This document shows, piece after piece, positions 7,395 to 13,075 of a stretch of DNA of 40,406 nucleotides; within the stretch, counting starts at the first letter, position 1; the number at the start of each line of letters is the position of its first letter. A program made the position numbers and the translations under genes. Below the pieces are notes generated by a model that ran no database searches, was not told the origin of the DNA, and was given only the letters and a program-made list of their open reading frames with translations. The DNA lies in assembly GCA_017409265.1 (NCBI GenBank), contig JAFQSY010000021.1, positions 1 to 40,406 on the forward strand. Direction: 5' to 3'. This DNA is from Clostridia bacterium (GTDB taxonomy: Bacteria; Bacillota; Clostridia; Oscillospirales; Acutalibacteraceae).

Positions 7395-8825
7395 TTAAAA
7401 ATGTCCTCCGCGAATAGCAACGGTAATCTTATCGCCCTCAAGATAAACCCAGCCGAGAACCTCAACAACCTTATAAAGCACACGGTGGAGCTTTTTGAAG
7501 ATTGAGTCATCGTTATGGTCATCATCGGTTTTCTTGATTGTAAGCGAATCGAGAAGCTCGCTGTTATCGCCCCTCATGGTCTTGATTTCCATGGTGTCAC
7601 CCTTGAAATCGAGGGTTGTGTAGGTTGTGACATCATTCTTTCCGAAGCTGTAAGCAACATAGGGGAGATTGAGAAATTCATATTCCTCAAAGCTGTTCTG
7701 GTCGCAGATTGCGTTTGTGTTGAGATAAACCGTGCCGAGGGGATCGGTGTAGGTTTTTCCGCTTTCTGCCTTGCCGATTGTCATGCTCTCATACATAAAG
7801 TGCGAGCGACCCTGCATGTGGCTGTGACCCGTGAGAACAAGGTCAACATCAAATGTATCGAAAATCGGGGTAAAAACCGCGTTGAGAAGAATCTGTGTTT
7901 CACCGCTGAATGCGCAGACCGAAGGTCCGAAAAGAGCCTGATGCATGACGCCGATGCGCCATTTTGCGTCGGGATTCTTTGCAACAGCTTCCTTCGCCAT
8001 TGCCATATGGTCGGCTGCTGATGCGGAGCAAGCATCAAAAACAAGATAAAGAACATCGCCGTAGCGGAACCAGAAATCGCGGTCAAGTCCCTCAAAATAT
8101 TTGCCGTAAAACTCGTTGGGCATATTGGTGTAATAGTTATAAGCCATGCCTTTTTTATCGTGGTTGCCGATTGCAAGTGCCATCGGAACGCTTCTGACTC
8201 CCTTGGGCATGAGAAGAGTCTGCCACTCATCGGCAGTTTTGCCCGTTGAGGTGTTATCGCCGGGCGAAACAAGATAGCTGATGTCGGGATTCTCTTCGAG
8301 CGCCTCGGCAAGAACGTTGTTCCATGTATATCCGTTCATGGACTGCACGGTCGAATCCTCGGTCTGACCTCCAATCTGGATATCGCCGATAACCATTGCT
8401 TTGTGGTCGCCGAAGGACTTGGTTTCATACTTGCATTTTTCGCTCCAGCCCTTATCTGTATACCACTGATAATAGTATGTTGTGTTTTCTTCAAGACCCG
8501 TGATATCAACGCGGCACACAACCTGCTCTTCGGTTTCTGCTTCGGTTGTTTCCCCCGTAAATGTTTTTACATTTGCCATTGAATATTTCTCCGAAATTCT
8601 TACCTTGGGGTCTGCCTTATCGGCGTCAGCATGCCAGCAAAGGCTGACCTCTCCCGCTTTTGCGCCGACATTGAGCATGGGAAGAGTATTTTCGTCACAG
8701 AGAGAAGAATAGCGTCTGTCCCATTCCGTCTGCGAAAGCTTCGGTGCATCAAAAGCCGCAAATGCGGGTGCTCCGAGAGAAAGCATCATTGCGATGCAGA
8801 GAATGATTGCAACTGTCTTTTTCAT
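7395..8825 (-). CDS. Secreted metallophosphoesterase, purple-acid-phosphatase-like
   Basis: This is a probable exported calcineurin-like phosphoesterase of 476 aa. A Sec signal peptide ends near AFA (about residues 21-24). An N-terminal fibronectin-like domain (about 45-140) contains the TGLEENTTYYYQW strand pattern of purple acid phosphatases. The metallophosphoesterase core follows, with its metal-ligand blocks in order: GDIQ (147-150), GDN (189-191), GNHD (220-223), VMHQ (293-296) and GHSH (333-336). The first block lacks the usual second His (GDIQ for GDxH). The substrate cannot be inferred. The C-terminal tail after residue 440 is amphipathic (KKLHRVLYKVVEVLGWVYL) and may contact the envelope. 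AAGGAGG lies 6 nt before the ATG. It stands alone, between a convergent lipoprotein gene and the lysis cassette. Confidence 0.85.
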   Translation of the reverse strand: MKKTVAIILCIAMMLSLGAPAFAAFDAPKLSQTEWDRRYSSLCDENTLPMLNVGAKAGEVSLCWHADADKADPKVRISEKYSMANVKTFTGETTEAETEEQVVCRVDITGLEENTTYYYQWYTDKGWSEKCKYETKSFGDHKAMVIGDIQIGGQTEDSTVQSMNGYTWNNVLAEALEENPDISYLVSPGDNTSTGKTADEWQTLLMPKGVRSVPMALAIGNHDKKGMAYNYYTNMPNEFYGKYFEGLDRDFWFRYGDVLYLVFDACSASAADHMAMAKEAVAKNPDAKWRIGVMHQALFGPSVCAFSGETQILLNAVFTPIFDTFDVDLVLTGHSHMQGRSHFMYESMTIGKAESGKTYTDPLGTVYLNTNAICDQNSFEEYEFLNLPYVAYSFGKNDVTTYTTLDFKGDTMEIKTMRGDNSELLDSLTIKKTDDDHNDDSIFKKLHRVLYKVVEVLGWVYLEGDKITVAIRGGHF

Positions 8826-8883
8826 TTTTTGCCTCCTTGATTTTATTTGTCCGTTTTTCGGTACTCATTTTTTAGTATAATAA

Positions 8884-8932
8884 AAAACAGACAACTTACC
8901 GTATAAAATTATAGCAGGTAAATTGTCTGTCT
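8884..8932 (-). terminator. Terminator at the end of the lysis cassette
   Basis: ACAGACAACTTACC (8887-8900) and GGTAAATTGTCTGT (8917-8930) form a 14-nt stem with one mismatch and a 16-nt loop. On the minus strand it is followed by TTTTTTATTATA. It closes the endolysin operon and separates it from the phosphoesterase gene. Confidence 0.85.
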
Positions 8933-8944
8933 GCAATATATTTT

Positions 8945-9646
8945 TTATCCTGTGTAGGCTCGTTCAGGCTTAATCAGCTCGCCCTGCTTGAGGAGCGAGA
9001 GCAGCTTTATGTTCTGCTTCACGGTGCCCTTGTAATCCTCAATTCCGTTTGCCTGCGCAATCACCTTGCGGCTCGAATAGCTGCTGTTCTCGCCAAGCGA
9101 TTTGAGCGCATCAACAATTGAGGTTTCGTCTTTTTCGCATTTTGCAAAATATCTTGAAGCTGTGGGGTACTTAATCCATGGGCATTTGCCCCAGCTTTCC
9201 CACGGTCTTTTTCTGATATCCGTTTCAACAACACCGTAGTGAAAACCCCTCGCTTCAATTACTCTTCCGCCGCCGATATATATTCCGACGTGACCGGGCA
9301 TGAAAACGAGAATACCGGGAATTTCGGGCAGAGTATATATTCTTCCTCTCTCCCTGCACTTTAAAAGCATTCCGTTTGCGGAAACATCCTGCGCCGAATT
9401 ATATACGGGCTTGCTGTCGGGAGTTTCGCTCCAGAGATAGCCCTTGATAAGCCCGACACAGTCATGAACCCTTTCTCCGAGGTCTGACTTATATCCGTCC
9501 ATTCTTTCATACTGATAATGTGCGGGATACTGACCCTTTTTTCTGTTAAGCAGGTCCTGGGTGGCGGTGTTGCCGAAGGTGCCGTACCAATAGGGCTTGC
9601 CGAGCTGTGCGATTGCGTATTCAACAAGACCCTTGCTTGTTTTCAT
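8945..9646 (-). CDS. NlpC/P60 phage-type endolysin
   Basis: This is a predicted cysteine peptidase that cleaves peptidoglycan stem peptides. The N-terminal NlpC/P60 domain (about residues 4-155) has the nucleophile block HDCVGLIKGYLW (Cys near residue 63) and the His block GHVGIYIGGGRVIEA (His near 119). The C-terminal 60 residues (about 172-228: SIVDALKSLGE through SLLKQGELIKP) resemble the short cell-wall-binding modules at the ends of phage lysins. No signal peptide is present, as expected for an enzyme released through a holin. ATG 9646 is preferred over 9652 because GGAGG lies 8 nt upstream of it. The gene overlaps the holin gene and is last in the cassette. Confidence 0.88.
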   Translation of the reverse strand: MKTSKGLVEYAIAQLGKPYWYGTFGNTATQDLLNRKKGQYPAHYQYERMDGYKSDLGERVHDCVGLIKGYLWSETPDSKPVYNSAQDVSANGMLLKCRERGRIYTLPEIPGILVFMPGHVGIYIGGGRVIEARGFHYGVVETDIRKRPWESWGKCPWIKYPTASRYFAKCEKDETSIVDALKSLGENSSYSSRKVIAQANGIEDYKGTVKQNIKLLSLLKQGELIKPERAYTG

Positions 9647-9870
9647 TGGCATTCACCTCCGTTCAGGGCTTTTACCGTTCCGTTCCAGACGGCGGAAATG
9701 CCTGCGGCGAGAGCTGCAATAAGCATTGAAAGCCCGACCTTTTTGAATGCATCAAAATCCGTCACCCCGAGCAGAGCATCAACCGAAATTGCCGATAAGA
9801 ATGCCTGCAAAAAAGTTTTTGCCGCGCGTATGGCGGTGTCTTTTATAATTATCTTTGTTTCTTCCTTCAT
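9643..9870 (-). CDS. Phage holin, r1t-like
   Basis: The 75-aa product has a pattern typical of small r1t-type holins: a basic amphipathic start (IIIKDTAIRAAKTFLQAF), a first hydrophobic stretch (about residues 17-34), a short acidic turn (VTDFDAFKK) and a second helix (VGLSMLIAALAAGISAV). Holins assemble lethal membrane holes that let the endolysin reach the wall. GAGGATGAA precedes the ATG. The 3' end overlaps the endolysin start, and the XhlA-like gene ends 1 nt upstream, so translation is coupled through the cassette. Family assignment rests on pattern and position. Confidence 0.75.
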   Translation of the reverse strand: MKEETKIIIKDTAIRAAKTFLQAFLSAISVDALLGVTDFDAFKKVGLSMLIAALAAGISAVWNGTVKALNGGECQ

Positions 9871-9871
9871 T

Positions 9872-10138
9872 TCATCCTCCTGTAATAAGTGTTACGGCAG
9901 TGCTGACCGCCGCTCCGATAAAAGCAAAAAGCAGCCTGTCCCAAAGCGCGGCAGGTCTTGATCTCAAAGCCTCAACTGCAGCTTTAAGCTCCCCGACAAG
10001 GGTAAGCAGACTGTTTAAAGTTGTTGTTGTTGCAACGAGTGATTTATCAATGCCGTTATATTTTCCGAAAAGCTCCTTTATGTTTTCCTCTGCCTGAATA
10101 AGTCGGTGCTCAATCTCCGTTAGGCTGATTTCGCTCAT
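9872..10138 (-). CDS. XhlA-like phage lysis accessory protein
   Basis: The 88-aa product has an N-terminal coiled-coil region (about residues 3-60, rich in E, K and L at heptad spacing) and one C-terminal membrane helix (about 68-87: LLFAFIGAAVSTAVTLI) preceded by RPAALWDR. This is the layout of the hemolysin XhlA family, which works with a holin and an amidase in prophage-like elements such as PBSX. Its ATG overlaps the stop of the upstream baseplate-like gene by 4 nt, and its stop lies 1 nt before the holin start. Another short phage membrane protein is the alternative. Confidence 0.7.
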   Translation of the reverse strand: MSEISLTEIEHRLIQAEENIKELFGKYNGIDKSLVATTTTLNSLLTLVGELKAAVEALRSRPAALWDRLLFAFIGAAVSTAVTLITGG

Positions 10139-11016
10139 GATTCACTGCCTTCGGTATAAGTGATTCTGACATACCGGAGCTGGTTTGCGCTGATATAATC
10201 CTGAATAACATTTGAATTTACGAGAAAATGAACGGTAGCGACAACATAATTGTAATCATCGTTATAAAACGGCTTTCGGCAGCACACAACATATGGGCAA
10301 TCAATATCATACATATACATATCTCTCAAATCGAGCCATTCGGGAAGACTGTCATTTTCAATCTGAAGCTCAACGGATAAAATCTGCGCATTATCGGGAA
10401 TACCGTAATTTTCAAGGCTTTCATACGAGAAAATTTTGAAACCCAATGCATTTTCCGAAACATGAGTTGCGTCAACCTCGCCTTTTTCATATGAAAGAAC
10501 AACAACCTTTTCATTTTTTTGAGCACCGACCGGTACGCCGTTATATGTAAGGCATCCGCCTGCCTCGTTGAGATTTTTGATAACCTCGGAATTATCATGT
10601 GAGTGTCTGTGGTTTCTGTTGATTTCAATGTTTCCTTTAAGAGTGTATTCCGCAATATCCTCTGTGCATTCCTTACCCTCGATTGAAGGCATGAAACGGA
10701 TTTTTGAAACCATCGGGCTTTTGTAAATCAACATATTTTCTTCGGAATAGCCCTCAAGCTGAACGCTCAGATAATGGTCCTGCGTAAGATGCGCTCCGAG
10801 CATGATTCTCATCTCCTGTGCAGGCTTAAGCTGCTCCGAGCGGTAAATCCTGCCGTCGGTTAAAAATACTGCAACAAAAAAATTACTTTCGCTGCCCAGA
10901 ATCTCTTCGGACGGCTTAATCACAAGCTGAGTTGCATTGTTTTCGCCGATATAGCCTGCTTCATCGCCGCCCGAAAGGGGATTTTCACTGTTAAAATCAA
11001 TCAGTAATTCTCTCAT
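10135..11016 (-). CDS. Phage baseplate/tail-fibre-like protein (BppU-like)
   Basis: The 293-aa product has no signal peptide or membrane helix. Residues 1-130 look like a beta-sandwich (FFVAVFLTDGRIYRSEQLKP, HYLSVQLEGY, SKIRFMPSIEG). This resembles the N-terminal region of BppU-type upper baseplate proteins, which in phages connects the tail to receptor-binding modules. A HRHSHDN motif near residue 137 is typical of phage tail-fibre collar segments. The remaining part (about 165-293) is unassigned. Both ends overlap neighbouring genes by 4 nt. No tail-tube, tape-measure or sheath gene is nearby, so if it is a baseplate protein it has lost its particle or been put to another use. Confidence 0.55.
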   Translation of the reverse strand: MRELLIDFNSENPLSGGDEAGYIGENNATQLVIKPSEEILGSESNFFVAVFLTDGRIYRSEQLKPAQEMRIMLGAHLTQDHYLSVQLEGYSEENMLIYKSPMVSKIRFMPSIEGKECTEDIAEYTLKGNIEINRNHRHSHDNSEVIKNLNEAGGCLTYNGVPVGAQKNEKVVVLSYEKGEVDATHVSENALGFKIFSYESLENYGIPDNAQILSVELQIENDSLPEWLDLRDMYMYDIDCPYVVCCRKPFYNDDYNYVVATVHFLVNSNVIQDYISANQLRYVRITYTEGSES

Positions 11017-11285
11017 TCGTCATCCTCCTTTTCTTCATTAATTTCACTAAAGGAATTTTTTCCTTCAATAACATCGCACCAGAGCTTTGCCTGAAAAAGA
11101 AAATCAAGAAGCATTGAAAGCTTCGTTTCGGCAATCGGAAATTGGCAGCATTTTATTCCGTTTTCGCATCCTTTGACTGCAAAAATATTGAACAAATCTC
11201 CTGCAGTTATTCTTGCATATTCCAGCTGCTGGCGAAGCTCTCCGACAGGAATTTCATTCTCGTTGACATTTTTGTTTTCTGACAT
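11013..11285 (-). CDS. Small cytoplasmic protein heading the lysis cassette
   Basis: I do not recognise this 90-aa protein. It begins MSENKNVNENEIPVGELRQQ, is predicted mostly helical and ends in a very acidic tail (EINEEKEDDE). It has three cysteines in the middle (KGCENGIKCC). An upstream ATG at 11375 is rejected because AAGGAGAAATAAT fits the ATG at 11285, and the upstream frame would run through the operator region. Its stop overlaps the baseplate-like gene by 4 nt. As first gene of the operon it lies right behind the putative operators, so it would be the first product made on derepression. Confidence 0.7.
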   Translation of the reverse strand: MSENKNVNENEIPVGELRQQLEYARITAGDLFNIFAVKGCENGIKCCQFPIAETKLSMLLDFLFQAKLWCDVIEGKNSFSEINEEKEDDE

Positions 11286-11303
11286 ATTATTTCTCCTTTC
11301 TCT

Positions 11304-11321
11304 TGTTTCGTATTCGACACA
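11304..11321. promoter_or_regulatory. Operator-like palindrome O1
   Basis: The site TGTTTCGTATTCGACACA fits the pattern TGTGTCG-N4-CGACACA with one mismatch. It lies in the 5' untranslated region of the lysis cassette, just upstream of its ribosome-binding site. It is one of three similarly built sites between the divergent transcription units. Confidence 0.65.
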
Positions 11322-11322
11322 A

Positions 11323-11351
11323 AGAAGAACAAAAAAATACGTTGTTCTTCT
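11323..11351 (-). other. Hairpin in the lysis-cassette leader
   Basis: AGAAGAAC (11323-11330) and GTTCTTCT (11344-11351) form a perfect 8-bp inverted repeat with a 13-nt loop. It lies between operators O1 and O2, within the expected leader RNA of the minus-strand operon. On the minus strand the loop contains a T run, so it may act as an RNA structure or a further protein site. Confidence 0.5.
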
Positions 11352-11365
11352 CACCCTCTTATATT

Positions 11366-11383
11366 TGTGTCGCAATCGACACT
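11366..11383. promoter_or_regulatory. Operator-like palindrome O2, overlapping the lysis-cassette promoter
   Basis: The site TGTGTCGCAATCGACACT has two perfect 6-bp half sites (GTGTCG/CGACAC) with a 4-nt spacer. On the minus strand it lies between a possible -35 (TTAGTG) and a TATAAG -10 at about 11360-11365. A bound dimer would block transcription of the cassette. Confidence 0.75.
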
Positions 11384-11402
11384 AACTATATTAGCGATAA
11401 AA

Positions 11403-11420
11403 ATTGTCGTTGTCAACACA
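11403..11420. promoter_or_regulatory. Operator-like palindrome O3, near the XRE gene
   Basis: ATTGTCGTTGTCAACACA matches the O1/O2 pattern imperfectly (5/7 and 6/7). Its centre is 37 nt from O2, on the XRE-gene side. A weaker third site next to the repressor gene is what phage-type autoregulation would predict. Confidence 0.5.
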
Positions 11421-11442
11421 TTTTTTAAATTTTTTCAAAAAT

Positions 11443-11471
11443 TTGTTGCGTTTAAGAAACATTTATGTTAT
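11443..11471 (+). promoter_or_regulatory. Candidate promoter of the XRE-ImmA operon
   Basis: TTGTTG (11443-11448), a 17-nt spacer and TGTTAT (11466-11471) are followed closely by GATTGAGGTGAG and the XRE start. The match to sigma-A is moderate. Confidence 0.45.
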
Positions 11472-11492
11472 TATTCGATTGAGGTGAGTGAA

Positions 11493-11855
11493 ATGCTCGG
11501 TGAAAAAATAAAAAAATTGAGAAAAGAAAACAAAATGACACAGACAGAGCTTTCCGATAAGCTCAACAGTCAGTTCGGTCTTAAAACAGACAGAGTTATG
11601 ATAAGCAAATGGGAAACGGGGTTTCAGACTCCGATAGTATCAACCCTTACATGCCTTGCGAAGCTTTTTGACGTTTCTCTTGACTATCTCAACGGCAACG
11701 AGAACGCTGAAACGCAGGCAAAAAATAACGTTGAAGCAGCCAAGGTTGCACTTTTTTCGGGAGCGGGCGAAGTGACCGAAGAAATGTGGCAGGAGGTTGT
11801 TGAATTTGCAAAATTTATTGAAGCAAGGGAGGCGAAAAGAAACGAAAACAAATGA
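11493..11855 (+). CDS. XRE-family phage-type transcriptional repressor
   Basis: The 120-aa product has an N-terminal Cro/C1-type helix-turn-helix (about residues 3-68: LGEKIKKLRKENKMTQTELS, then VMISKWETGFQTPIVSTLTC and LAKLFDVSLDYL). A helical tail follows (GAGEVTEEMWQEVVEFAKFI). The ATG at 11493 fits GAGGTGAG at 5-6 nt; upstream in-frame codons run through the operator region and are not used. The gene is divergent from the lysis cassette. The next gene encodes an ImmA-type protease, the classic ImmR-ImmA pair of ICEBs1 and many prophages, in which the protease destroys the repressor. I infer that this protein binds O1-O3 and silences the cassette. Confidence 0.9.
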   Translation: MLGEKIKKLRKENKMTQTELSDKLNSQFGLKTDRVMISKWETGFQTPIVSTLTCLAKLFDVSLDYLNGNENAETQAKNNVEAAKVALFSGAGEVTEEMWQEVVEFAKFIEAREAKRNENK

Positions 11856-12258
11856 GCTTTATGAAATCGCAGAAAAAAACGGAACAGAAATCGTATGCTG
11901 CGATTTGCCCAGAACCTGCTCGGTTTCGGTAAGAACCGCATCGGGCTGTTGCTTTATTGGCATTGATCCGTTTGAGATTGAAACAACGGCACAGGAGAGG
12001 GTGCATCTTGCCCATGAAATCGGTCATTGCGAAACGCTTTCGTTTTATAACACATATTCGCCTCTCGATATCCGCGAAAAGCAGGAAAAAAAGGCGGACA
12101 GATGGGCAGTTTCAAAGCTCGTCCCATTTGATGAGTTGAACGAAGCTTTTGAACGCGGAACAGTTGAAATCTGGGATTTGGCAGAGCTTTTTGACGTTAC
12201 TGAAGAATTTATGCTCAAAGCCATTGAAATTTACAAATTAAAAGGAATTTTAATATAA
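11806..12258 (+). CDS. ImmA/IrrE-type metallopeptidase (anti-repressor)
   Basis: The product is a zinc peptidase of about 150 aa with the active-site motif HLAHEIGH (His-Glu-x-x-His, about residues 70-74) and a downstream EKKADRWA helix expected to give the third ligand. ImmA proteases cleave cognate XRE repressors, usually after DNA damage or a cell-density signal. The start is inferred to be TTG 11806 because AGGAGG (11791-11796) lies 9 nt upstream. This overlaps the XRE gene by 50 nt and no better downstream start exists. The Cys-rich stretch EIVCCDLPRTCSVSVRTASGCC is unusual and could serve redox or metal sensing. The hydrolase gene follows after 13 nt. Confidence 0.85.
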   Translation: MQNLLKQGRRKETKTNELYEIAEKNGTEIVCCDLPRTCSVSVRTASGCCFIGIDPFEIETTAQERVHLAHEIGHCETLSFYNTYSPLDIREKQEKKADRWAVSKLVPFDELNEAFERGTVEIWDLAELFDVTEEFMLKAIEIYKLKGILI

Positions 12259-12271
12259 AAGGAGAATAACC

Positions 12272-13075
12272 ATGTCAGATTTATACAGCTCAATCTGTAT
12301 TTCATCCGTCAAGGCATCGGCGCTTGAAATTGCAGGAATCGAAATACCCGAAAGTATTGAGAAACCCAACCCCGTTTTAACTGCCCTTGCAGAAAAAAAA
12401 CTCGGAGGTAAGCCCGCTGACAGAGTTGTTATCTACAACCCCGATGCGGTTGCGCTCTGGGTTTATCAGAAATATACCTCAATGTTTACAAAAACGGCGC
12501 TCTGCTCCGATGTTGCGCTGCCGATGCTTTCGGTTATGCCGAGCGTAACTCCCGTCTGCTTTGCTTCGATGTATTCGGGAGTCATGCCCGATATCCACGG
12601 AATAAAGAAATATGAAAAGCCCGTTCTGACCGTCAACACAATCTTTGACAGCTACATAAAAGCGGGTAAAAAAGCTGCCATTGTTTCAACCGACAGGGAC
12701 AGCATTTCGATGATTTTCCTCAACCGTGACATGGAATATTTCATTTATGACACGCCCGAAGAGGTTAATGAAAAGGCTCTTTCACTCATCGATGAGGACA
12801 GATTTGACCTTATCGTTATCTACAACGGCAACTATGACAGCACCATGCATAAATTCGGCCCCGAGGCTCCCGAATCGCTTGCAGAGCTTGAAAAAAATAT
12901 TGAATTTTATTCAGAGCTGGTTGAGAAAATCAACCGTGAGTGGAAACACCACAGCGTTTTCTACGGCTTCTGCCCCGACCACGGCTGCCACGAAATCGAC
13001 GGCGACTGTGGCTCACACGGTCTTGACATGGAAGAGGATATGAATGTAATTCACTTTTACGGAGTAAAAGTGTAA
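12272..13075 (+). CDS. Alkaline-phosphatase-superfamily hydrolase (type I phosphodiesterase-like)
   Basis: This 267-aa cytoplasmic protein (no signal peptide) shows the metal-site order of nucleotide pyrophosphatases/phosphodiesterases: YNPDAVA (Asp56), the catalytic-Thr block SVTPVCFASMYSGVMPDIHG (Thr93), NYDSTMHKFG (Asp189, His193), CPDHGCH (Asp236, His237) and GSHG (His249). It is shorter than most family members and has a compact cap region. The substrate is unknown; a nucleotide, sugar phosphate or phosphonate ester is plausible. AAAGGAG provides the ribosome-binding site. It starts 13 nt after immA, so it probably shares the XRE-ImmA promoter. That is an unexpected partner and could mean a role in the same regulatory module, or mere insertion upstream of a resident gene. 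Confidence 0.8.
   Translation: MSDLYSSICISSVKASALEIAGIEIPESIEKPNPVLTALAEKKLGGKPADRVVIYNPDAVALWVYQKYTSMFTKTALCSDVALPMLSVMPSVTPVCFASMYSGVMPDIHGIKKYEKPVLTVNTIFDSYIKAGKKAAIVSTDRDSISMIFLNRDMEYFIYDTPEEVNEKALSLIDEDRFDLIVIYNGNYDSTMHKFGPEAPESLAELEKNIEFYSELVEKINREWKHHSVFYGFCPDHGCHEIDGDCGSHGLDMEEDMNVIHFYGVKV

Follow-up and report, generated by a model that had tools for sequence, protein, structure and literature searches.

Genes and features of the locus

The window is the whole 40,406-nucleotide stretch analysed here, which is one complete contig (JAFQSY010000021.1) of a 2.5-Mb, 91-contig Clostridia bacterium genome that is 80% complete. It carries a cassette of phage-type lysis genes. Five minus-strand genes run from the start of a small acidic protein at 11285 to the stop of a lysin at 8945, opposite an XRE-ImmA pair (11493-12258). 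The operon genes overlap by 4 to 10 bases, save for a 1-base gap between the holin and XhlA-like genes. The XRE and ImmA frames overlap each other by 59 bases and are divergent from the operon. An original prediction, made from the sequence alone, had these genes with the right coordinates and frames. It drew the cassette as 8884-13075, a range that takes in a phosphodiesterase gene, which is a neighbour outside the unit. The genes and terminator of the unit are as follows.

8876-8944, minus: intrinsic terminator 3' of the lysin gene, a hairpin of at least 16 pairs followed by a T run (-21.3 kcal/mol, z -5.9 against shuffles)
8945-9652, minus: lysin, NlpC/P60-like (NLPC_P60 profile), with an extra C-terminal domain
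9643-9870, minus: r1t-type holin (Pfam PF16945, E 8e-6; PHROG 443)
9872-10138, minus: XhlA-like protein (PHROG 937 'hemolysin', E 8.6e-6), whose hydropathy shows a hydrophobic segment at the C-terminal end
10135-11016, minus: BppU-fold protein, by fold match
11013-11285, minus: small acidic protein of 90 aa (net charge -9), encoded by the first operon gene
11493-11855, plus: XRE-family repressor (HTH_3, 39.6 bits, cut-off 23)
11797-12258, plus: ImmA-type metalloprotease with a HEIGH motif (Peptidase_M78, 29.3 bits, cut-off 22; PHROG 87, E 8e-26)

The strong terminator of the prediction is borne out by the folding energy. The window lysin scores 21.4 bits with NLPC_P60, just under the Pfam cut-off of 23, and both relatives that were scanned are above it. 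Its C65 and H121 are invariant in 11 aligned sequences. The r1t holin is also slightly short of its cut-off (26.3 bits, cut-off 26.9). A holin and endolysin pair lies outside a prophage, as in Type 10 secretion or lytic cassettes, with window family scores just below the Pfam cut-offs. The XhlA-like identity has PHROG 937 as its one profile match. The acidic and BppU-like proteins have zero Pfam matches at E 1. Neither Pfam nor PHROG finds a spanin in the window operon; the XhlA-like protein of one relative, G216, has a weak score to a spanin family (E 2.5e-4).

Conservation in the genus

The genus sample is 45 genomes, many of them incomplete, and cassettes were found by a lysin search, so any with another lysin would escape. 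The lysin has a match in 20 of the genomes. The order acidic-BppU-XhlA-holin-lysin is present in 12, the window counted. All five operon genes have a start and a stop in each of the 12 cassettes, the XRE gene has both in 9 of 9, and ImmA is full-length in 8 of 9. The stops that the lysin search flagged in G226, G215 and G218 are terminal stops.

The cassettes occupy different genomic settings, and no phage genes were seen alongside them. Their flanks (12 loci, ~20 kb) read as ordinary chromosomal genes. This and the absence of prophages around the relatives' cassettes were judged from open reading frame (ORF) listings and BLAST; profile scans of the flanks cover the window and two G210 genes (HTH and AAA/DUF4143). 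In the window, a Pfam scan of the 23 non-cassette ORFs, 6 of which matched nothing, finds no family involved in phage structure, packaging or integration, just as predicted. The scan places no integration, packaging, capsid or tail genes with the lysis genes, as a prophage would have. The tape measure and tail tube of an F-type (monocin-like) tailocin are missing at the locus, where the BppU-fold protein stands alone, and no Dit, Tal or receptor-binding protein is recognised near the window cassette. The prediction had taken a full prophage at this locus in sister strains as the sign of a recent deletion. This scenario was rejected, as no prophage was seen there by eye among the genes listed in views of up to 20 kb.

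The XRE-ImmA control region

An XRE gene adjoining an M78 protease gene, the ImmR-ImmA type of arrangement, is found in 9 of the 12 cassettes, one of them with a shortened ImmA frame. In the window the region between this pair and the operon has the following features.

11305-11320, minus: operator copy before the ribosome-binding site, GTGTCGAATACGAAAC
11367-11382, unstranded: perfect palindrome GTGTCG-N4-CGACAC, an operator immediately following the -10
11388-11416, minus: lysis-operon promoter TTGACA-17-TAATAT, read from the sequence (-35 at 11411-11416, -10 at 11388-11393)
11404-11419: degenerate operator copy covering the -35
11445-11460, unstranded: weaker operator-like site upstream of XRE, with 1 mismatch in the window

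The predicted operators stand. The narrower form, GTGTCGNNNNCGNNAC, has 3 matches at two places (11367-11382 and 11305-11320) against 0.05 expected in the whole window. The wider form has 2 window matches against 0.11 expected, which 1 of 100 shuffles reached. All nine XRE-ImmA cassettes have a TTGACA/TAATAT-like promoter followed by the perfect GTGTCG-N4-CGACAC, with fixed arms and a variable centre. All nine also have the second copy before the ribosome-binding site and the degenerate one over the -35 (1 or 2 mismatches), and the site upstream of XRE is exact in three. There are 21 exact sites in the nine intergenic regions against 0.01 expected from shuffles, a test that is not independent because the consensus was drawn from the same sequences.

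In viral sequences the -35 operator pattern occurs in 19 stretches. All of these lack both the perfect operator and the cassette proteins, so the search gave no source phage. Two viral relatives of ImmA adjoin XRE genes in contigs that look phage-like. Elsewhere in the window genome (L167, G000:C37, about 24253), CGAACGTACGTTCG lies just upstream of an HTH_3 and Peptidase_S24 gene, a LexA/CI-like repressor. The 5' leader of the acidic gene (11286-11372, minus) can form a hairpin (z -3.3).

LexA-type cassettes

The other three cassettes (G226, G215 and G218) have no XRE-ImmA pair beside the operon. No ImmA match was found in these genomes, which are 64-88% complete; XRE itself was not searched for there. 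Just after the -10 they have CGAACATTTGTTCG or CGAACAAATGTTCG instead. These belong to the CGAACN4GTTCG family, which we take to be the Gram-positive LexA box. The pattern occurs at 2 places in each genome, one of them the cassette, and a backward control pattern at 7-10. In G226 the second place lies at the promoter of an IMS-family (dinB-type) polymerase, and its box is identical to the one in the cassette. In G215 it is beside an IMS-polymerase and YolD pair, nearer a zinc-ribbon gene. Close variants of the box are found at the lexA promoters of all three genomes (CAAACAAATGTTTG and CGAACATTTGTGCT) and at the recA promoters of G215 and G218 (AGAACATTTGTTTG); recA was not found in G226. The resemblance to the lexA, recA and dinB boxes suggests that the three sister cassettes belong to the LexA regulon. 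Repressor control with a link to DNA damage, as originally predicted, is strengthened by these cassettes.

The XhlA/holin module differs in the LexA-box cassettes too. XRE goes with the r1t holin in 8 cassettes and with a second holin in 1, and the LexA box goes with the second holin in 3. Since the output is kept while the trigger and pore parts change, a maintained and probably damage-triggered lysis unit is favoured over a recent remnant.

Selection and history

The ratios of nonsynonymous to synonymous change (dN/dS) come from 12 printed pairs, three rows of which rest on wrong gene ends. They are 0.06-0.15 for the lysin, 0.06-0.14 for XRE, 0.02-0.25 for ImmA (leaving out the G207-G202 pair at 0.92, which includes a frame with a stop); the acidic protein gives 0.07-0.42, with 4 pairs undefined, and the BppU-like protein 0.15-0.41, with 1 undefined. 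With ratios below 1 and five open frames in every cassette, the claim that the unit looks maintained rather than decaying is supported.

Several points weigh against a maintained unit released by damage. The ratios are rough because dS approaches or exceeds 1 in many pairs. The search for stop codons in relatives, clean for the five operon genes, did find one in the ImmA frame of G202 (L046, near 11661), where an in-frame stop lies near the start and the first usual start is 99 bases in; this contig has a low coverage of 2.27. Four genomes adjoining the cassette clade have no lysin match. The second CGAACN4GTTCG place in G218 is not at an SOS gene.

The clade in question comes from a MnmG tree that samples 30 of the 43 genomes carrying this gene, in which 11 cassette genomes form one clade (99/96). 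The twelfth, G216, is in an unresolved fork with four cassette-less genomes, so the cassette may have been gained once, gained twice, or gained once and lost once. In the lysin tree the eight XRE/r1t-type cassettes are apart from G226, G215 and G218 (89/97), contrary to MnmG (100/98). This conflict between the sequence trees suggests that cassettes were exchanged within the genus.

The BppU-like protein

The label in the prediction was a good guess and is backed by a fold match. The protein has a constrained N-terminal domain (1-112), a linker and a variable C-terminal beta domain (166-293). The best fold match of the modelled N-terminal domain is TP901-1 BppU, at 10% identity over the aligned part, so the protein is predicted to have the N-terminal fold of the BppU family. 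A second structure prediction used 11 of the 12 sequences, without G216. The BppU identity is supported by the modelled fold and not by Pfam, which gives no credible match, BppU or other, in the 12 members. PHROG 7946 (function unknown) matches 7 of the 12 with E values no higher than 1 (8.8e-8 at best, 0.35 for the window protein), and a PDB sequence search with the alignment gave one match at chance level. XepA is absent among the fold matches listed for the model, which does not exclude it.

Among 200 family genomes the search found the window, G145 and one distant match in G194; a scan of a species collection confirmed 0 of 18 candidates. The G194 match (L017, G194:C6, 10532-10987) is an N-terminal domain at 28-30% within an 894-aa frame, in a different genus of the same family. 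Together with the missing virion genes, the predicted fold points to a baseplate-type protein that was retained without an encoded baseplate.

What the cassette may do

We argue that the cassette is likely a domesticated phage lysis unit that XRE (or LexA) holds off until DNA damage releases it. XRE would occupy the operator array over the divergent promoters and keep the operon off. On DNA damage ImmA would remove XRE, by analogy with ICEBs1 ImmR-ImmA, Listeria MpaR and CapH-CapP. In three sister species LexA itself would repress the operon, and because these LexA-type cassettes exist we propose the same damage trigger for the ImmA cassettes. The derepressed operon would make the acidic and BppU-like proteins, then XhlA, holin and lysin, and the cell would burst. 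Candidate benefits are that the BppU-like protein or the cell contents are released for kin, or that a damaged or phage-infected cell is removed. The original interpretation as a whole is partly supported.

If this is right, species within one genus control a domesticated lysis unit in different ways (nine with repressor and protease, three with a LexA-type box) while its output genes are the same. Differing control with constant output makes the purpose of bacterial self-lysis testable by comparison. We tentatively go one step further. The cassette may be a self-lysis device of uncultured gut Oscillospiraceae-type bacteria that couples bursting to the release of a fast-evolving, baseplate-derived binding protein; the host LexA and a phage-type repressor-protease switch would have replaced one another as its trigger. 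Damaged or phage-attacked cells would then release an aimed protein against competitors or into the baseplates of the attacking phages.

One can imagine several other roles. The BppU-like protein could be the damage-induced cargo of a colicin-like release device, its variable C-terminal domain binding competitors, kin or matrix after release. This is possible but doubtful. The C-terminal domain is the least conserved part, with a mean identity of 25% over 66 pairs against 46% for the N-terminal domain and 72% for the lysin. The protein is kept in all 12 cassettes with the other virion genes gone, and excerpts of the work on Type 10 secretion cassettes describe cargo freed through lysis (PMC10847048). 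Against this, the protein has no toxin or enzyme signal, the best Z for the modelled C-terminal domain among 999 aligned chains is 4.8, and no immunity gene is recognised.

It is unlikely that the cassette is an anti-phage unit, in which the cell lyses early upon infection or prophage induction and the docking-type domain enters the intruder's baseplates and spoils its progeny. That domain is constrained without an encoded baseplate (omega 0.07, 0.13 and 0.11 in three pairs), but folding alone may account for this. It is also found in viral contigs and in the G217 prophage-like region. The regulator pair weakly matches defence profiles: capP is the best match of the window ImmA (E 9.5e-7), and XRE matches capH (E 1e-7), but three other helix-turn-helix profiles score better. 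The five lysis-operon proteins match no profile of the defence library at E 0.01.

Some gene transfer agents have dispersed loci, and a BppU docking domain would require a partner such as Dit. The cassette as a split lysis and tip module, serving a tail-like particle or gene transfer agent whose other genes lie elsewhere in the genome, is nevertheless quite improbable. The BppU-like and lysin searches of the window genome, at its 80% completeness, give this locus alone; tail genes were not searched genome-wide. A prophage remnant drifting without function is very improbable. In its favour are the phage type of the lysis genes, the holin-like protein and lysin of G230, the lysins of G201, G224 and G211 (among the genes listed) and the one shortened ImmA frame. 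Against it stand 12 open-frame cassettes with purifying selection, conserved operators and two regulator types.

Neighbouring genes and related loci

Two host genes border the window cassette.

7395-8825: metallophosphatase gene, downstream neighbour of the lysin
12272-13075: phosphodiesterase gene, outside the cassette unit

By profile the neighbours are host genes (tRNA synthetases, the metallophosphatase and the phosphodiesterase); dnaX, recR, dnaN, recF and mnmEG near the cassette were assigned as host genes by eye. The metallophosphatase follows the lysin directly on its downstream side in four cassettes of the 12 (window, G210, G223 and G209), where it is all that is shared and the remaining neighbours differ. 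An empty site around this gene was considered and rejected, since the gene is common in the genus and the surrounding order is too variable. G145, G207, G202 and G222 have most of one neighbourhood in common. The G215 and G218 cassettes are at one shared place and that of G226 is at another. In G145, G202 and G222 the cassette lies between mfs-like and lipase-like genes. At that place the window genome (L125, G000:C58, 7690-8646, minus) has a 318-aa gene and no cassette, possibly a variable site. In five other stretches compared there, the lipase-like gene alone was present of seven genes sought.

Some genomes have lysins outside the full cassette. G230 (L052, about 9.6-11.0 kb) has a holin-like protein and a lysin beside an ileS-like gene, without the BppU-like or acidic genes. 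This holin-like protein is 62% identical to the G218 holin by BLAST and has no Pfam match. G201 (L053, about 9.6-11.0 kb) has a lysin beside an ileS-like gene, again without those two. A lysin of the same family is found in G224 (L056) and G211 (L054), at about 9.8-10.7 kb; the rest of the cassette is absent in G224, and in G211 among the genes listed. G205 and G241 have other related lysins and G221 has fragments. G217 has a prophage-like region, named by eye, with a BppU-like homologue and a presumed tape measure that has no Pfam match. Relatives of the lysin were found at 10 viral loci and in 19 phage records, 1 of which covers >80% of its length.

Within the searches made, whose pattern step lowers their sensitivity, no other genus yielded the acidic protein. 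In a collection of 84,980 species it is at 11 loci, all exact matches to known genus relatives. These genomes are Clostridia or Oscillospiraceae metagenome-assembled genomes, 9 of the 11 from goat, sheep, deer or buffalo gut samples. Among 398 family genomes it is in the window and G145, plus a weak match in G318 that was judged from its context to be chance, and in viral sequences 0 of 15 candidates were confirmed.

Comparison with known systems

Titles and abstract starts among the best matches listed in the open-licence literature give no description of such a unit. CapH and CapP are damage-responsive regulators of cyclic-oligonucleotide-based anti-phage signalling systems (CBASS), and CapP is a DNA-damage-activated protease. 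They resemble the cassette pair in being an XRE-type repressor and an ImmA-type protease. The cassette pair differs in that it faces a lysis operon, and the window scans found no CBASS genes.

The remaining comparisons use excerpts of the cited papers. TP901-1 BppU (ORF48; PMC3893620) resembles the cassette protein in length (its domains extend to residue 299) and in layout, with an N-terminal beta domain, then a linker or helices, then a C-terminal beta domain. The low identity sets them apart, as does a setting in which the cassette has no recognised Dit, Tal or receptor-binding protein nearby. The xepA-xhlA-xhlB-xlyA genes of Bacillus subtilis PBSX (PMC6834076) have the same order of two-domain beta protein, XhlA, holin and lysin, which makes XepA the positional analogue. 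PBSX has upstream tail genes, and the BppU-like model matches TP901-1 BppU instead.

In the Listeria monocin, ImmA-type release of the lysis module on DNA damage has been demonstrated (MpaR; PMC6872733). Its locus is like the cassette in being phage-derived, with a repressor, an ImmA-type protease and no capsid or excision genes, and its lysis module is damage-inducible. Unlike the monocin, the cassette retains just a BppU-fold protein. Functionally close are the lytic cassettes of Type 10 secretion in Serratia and Yersinia (PMC10847048), which also have a holin and an endolysin outside prophages and between host genes; lysis of their own cells is reported in the excerpts. They include spanins, and SOS-insensitivity is reported for that of Yersinia, whereas the cassette described here has LexA-type or repressor-type operators and a baseplate-type protein within its operon.

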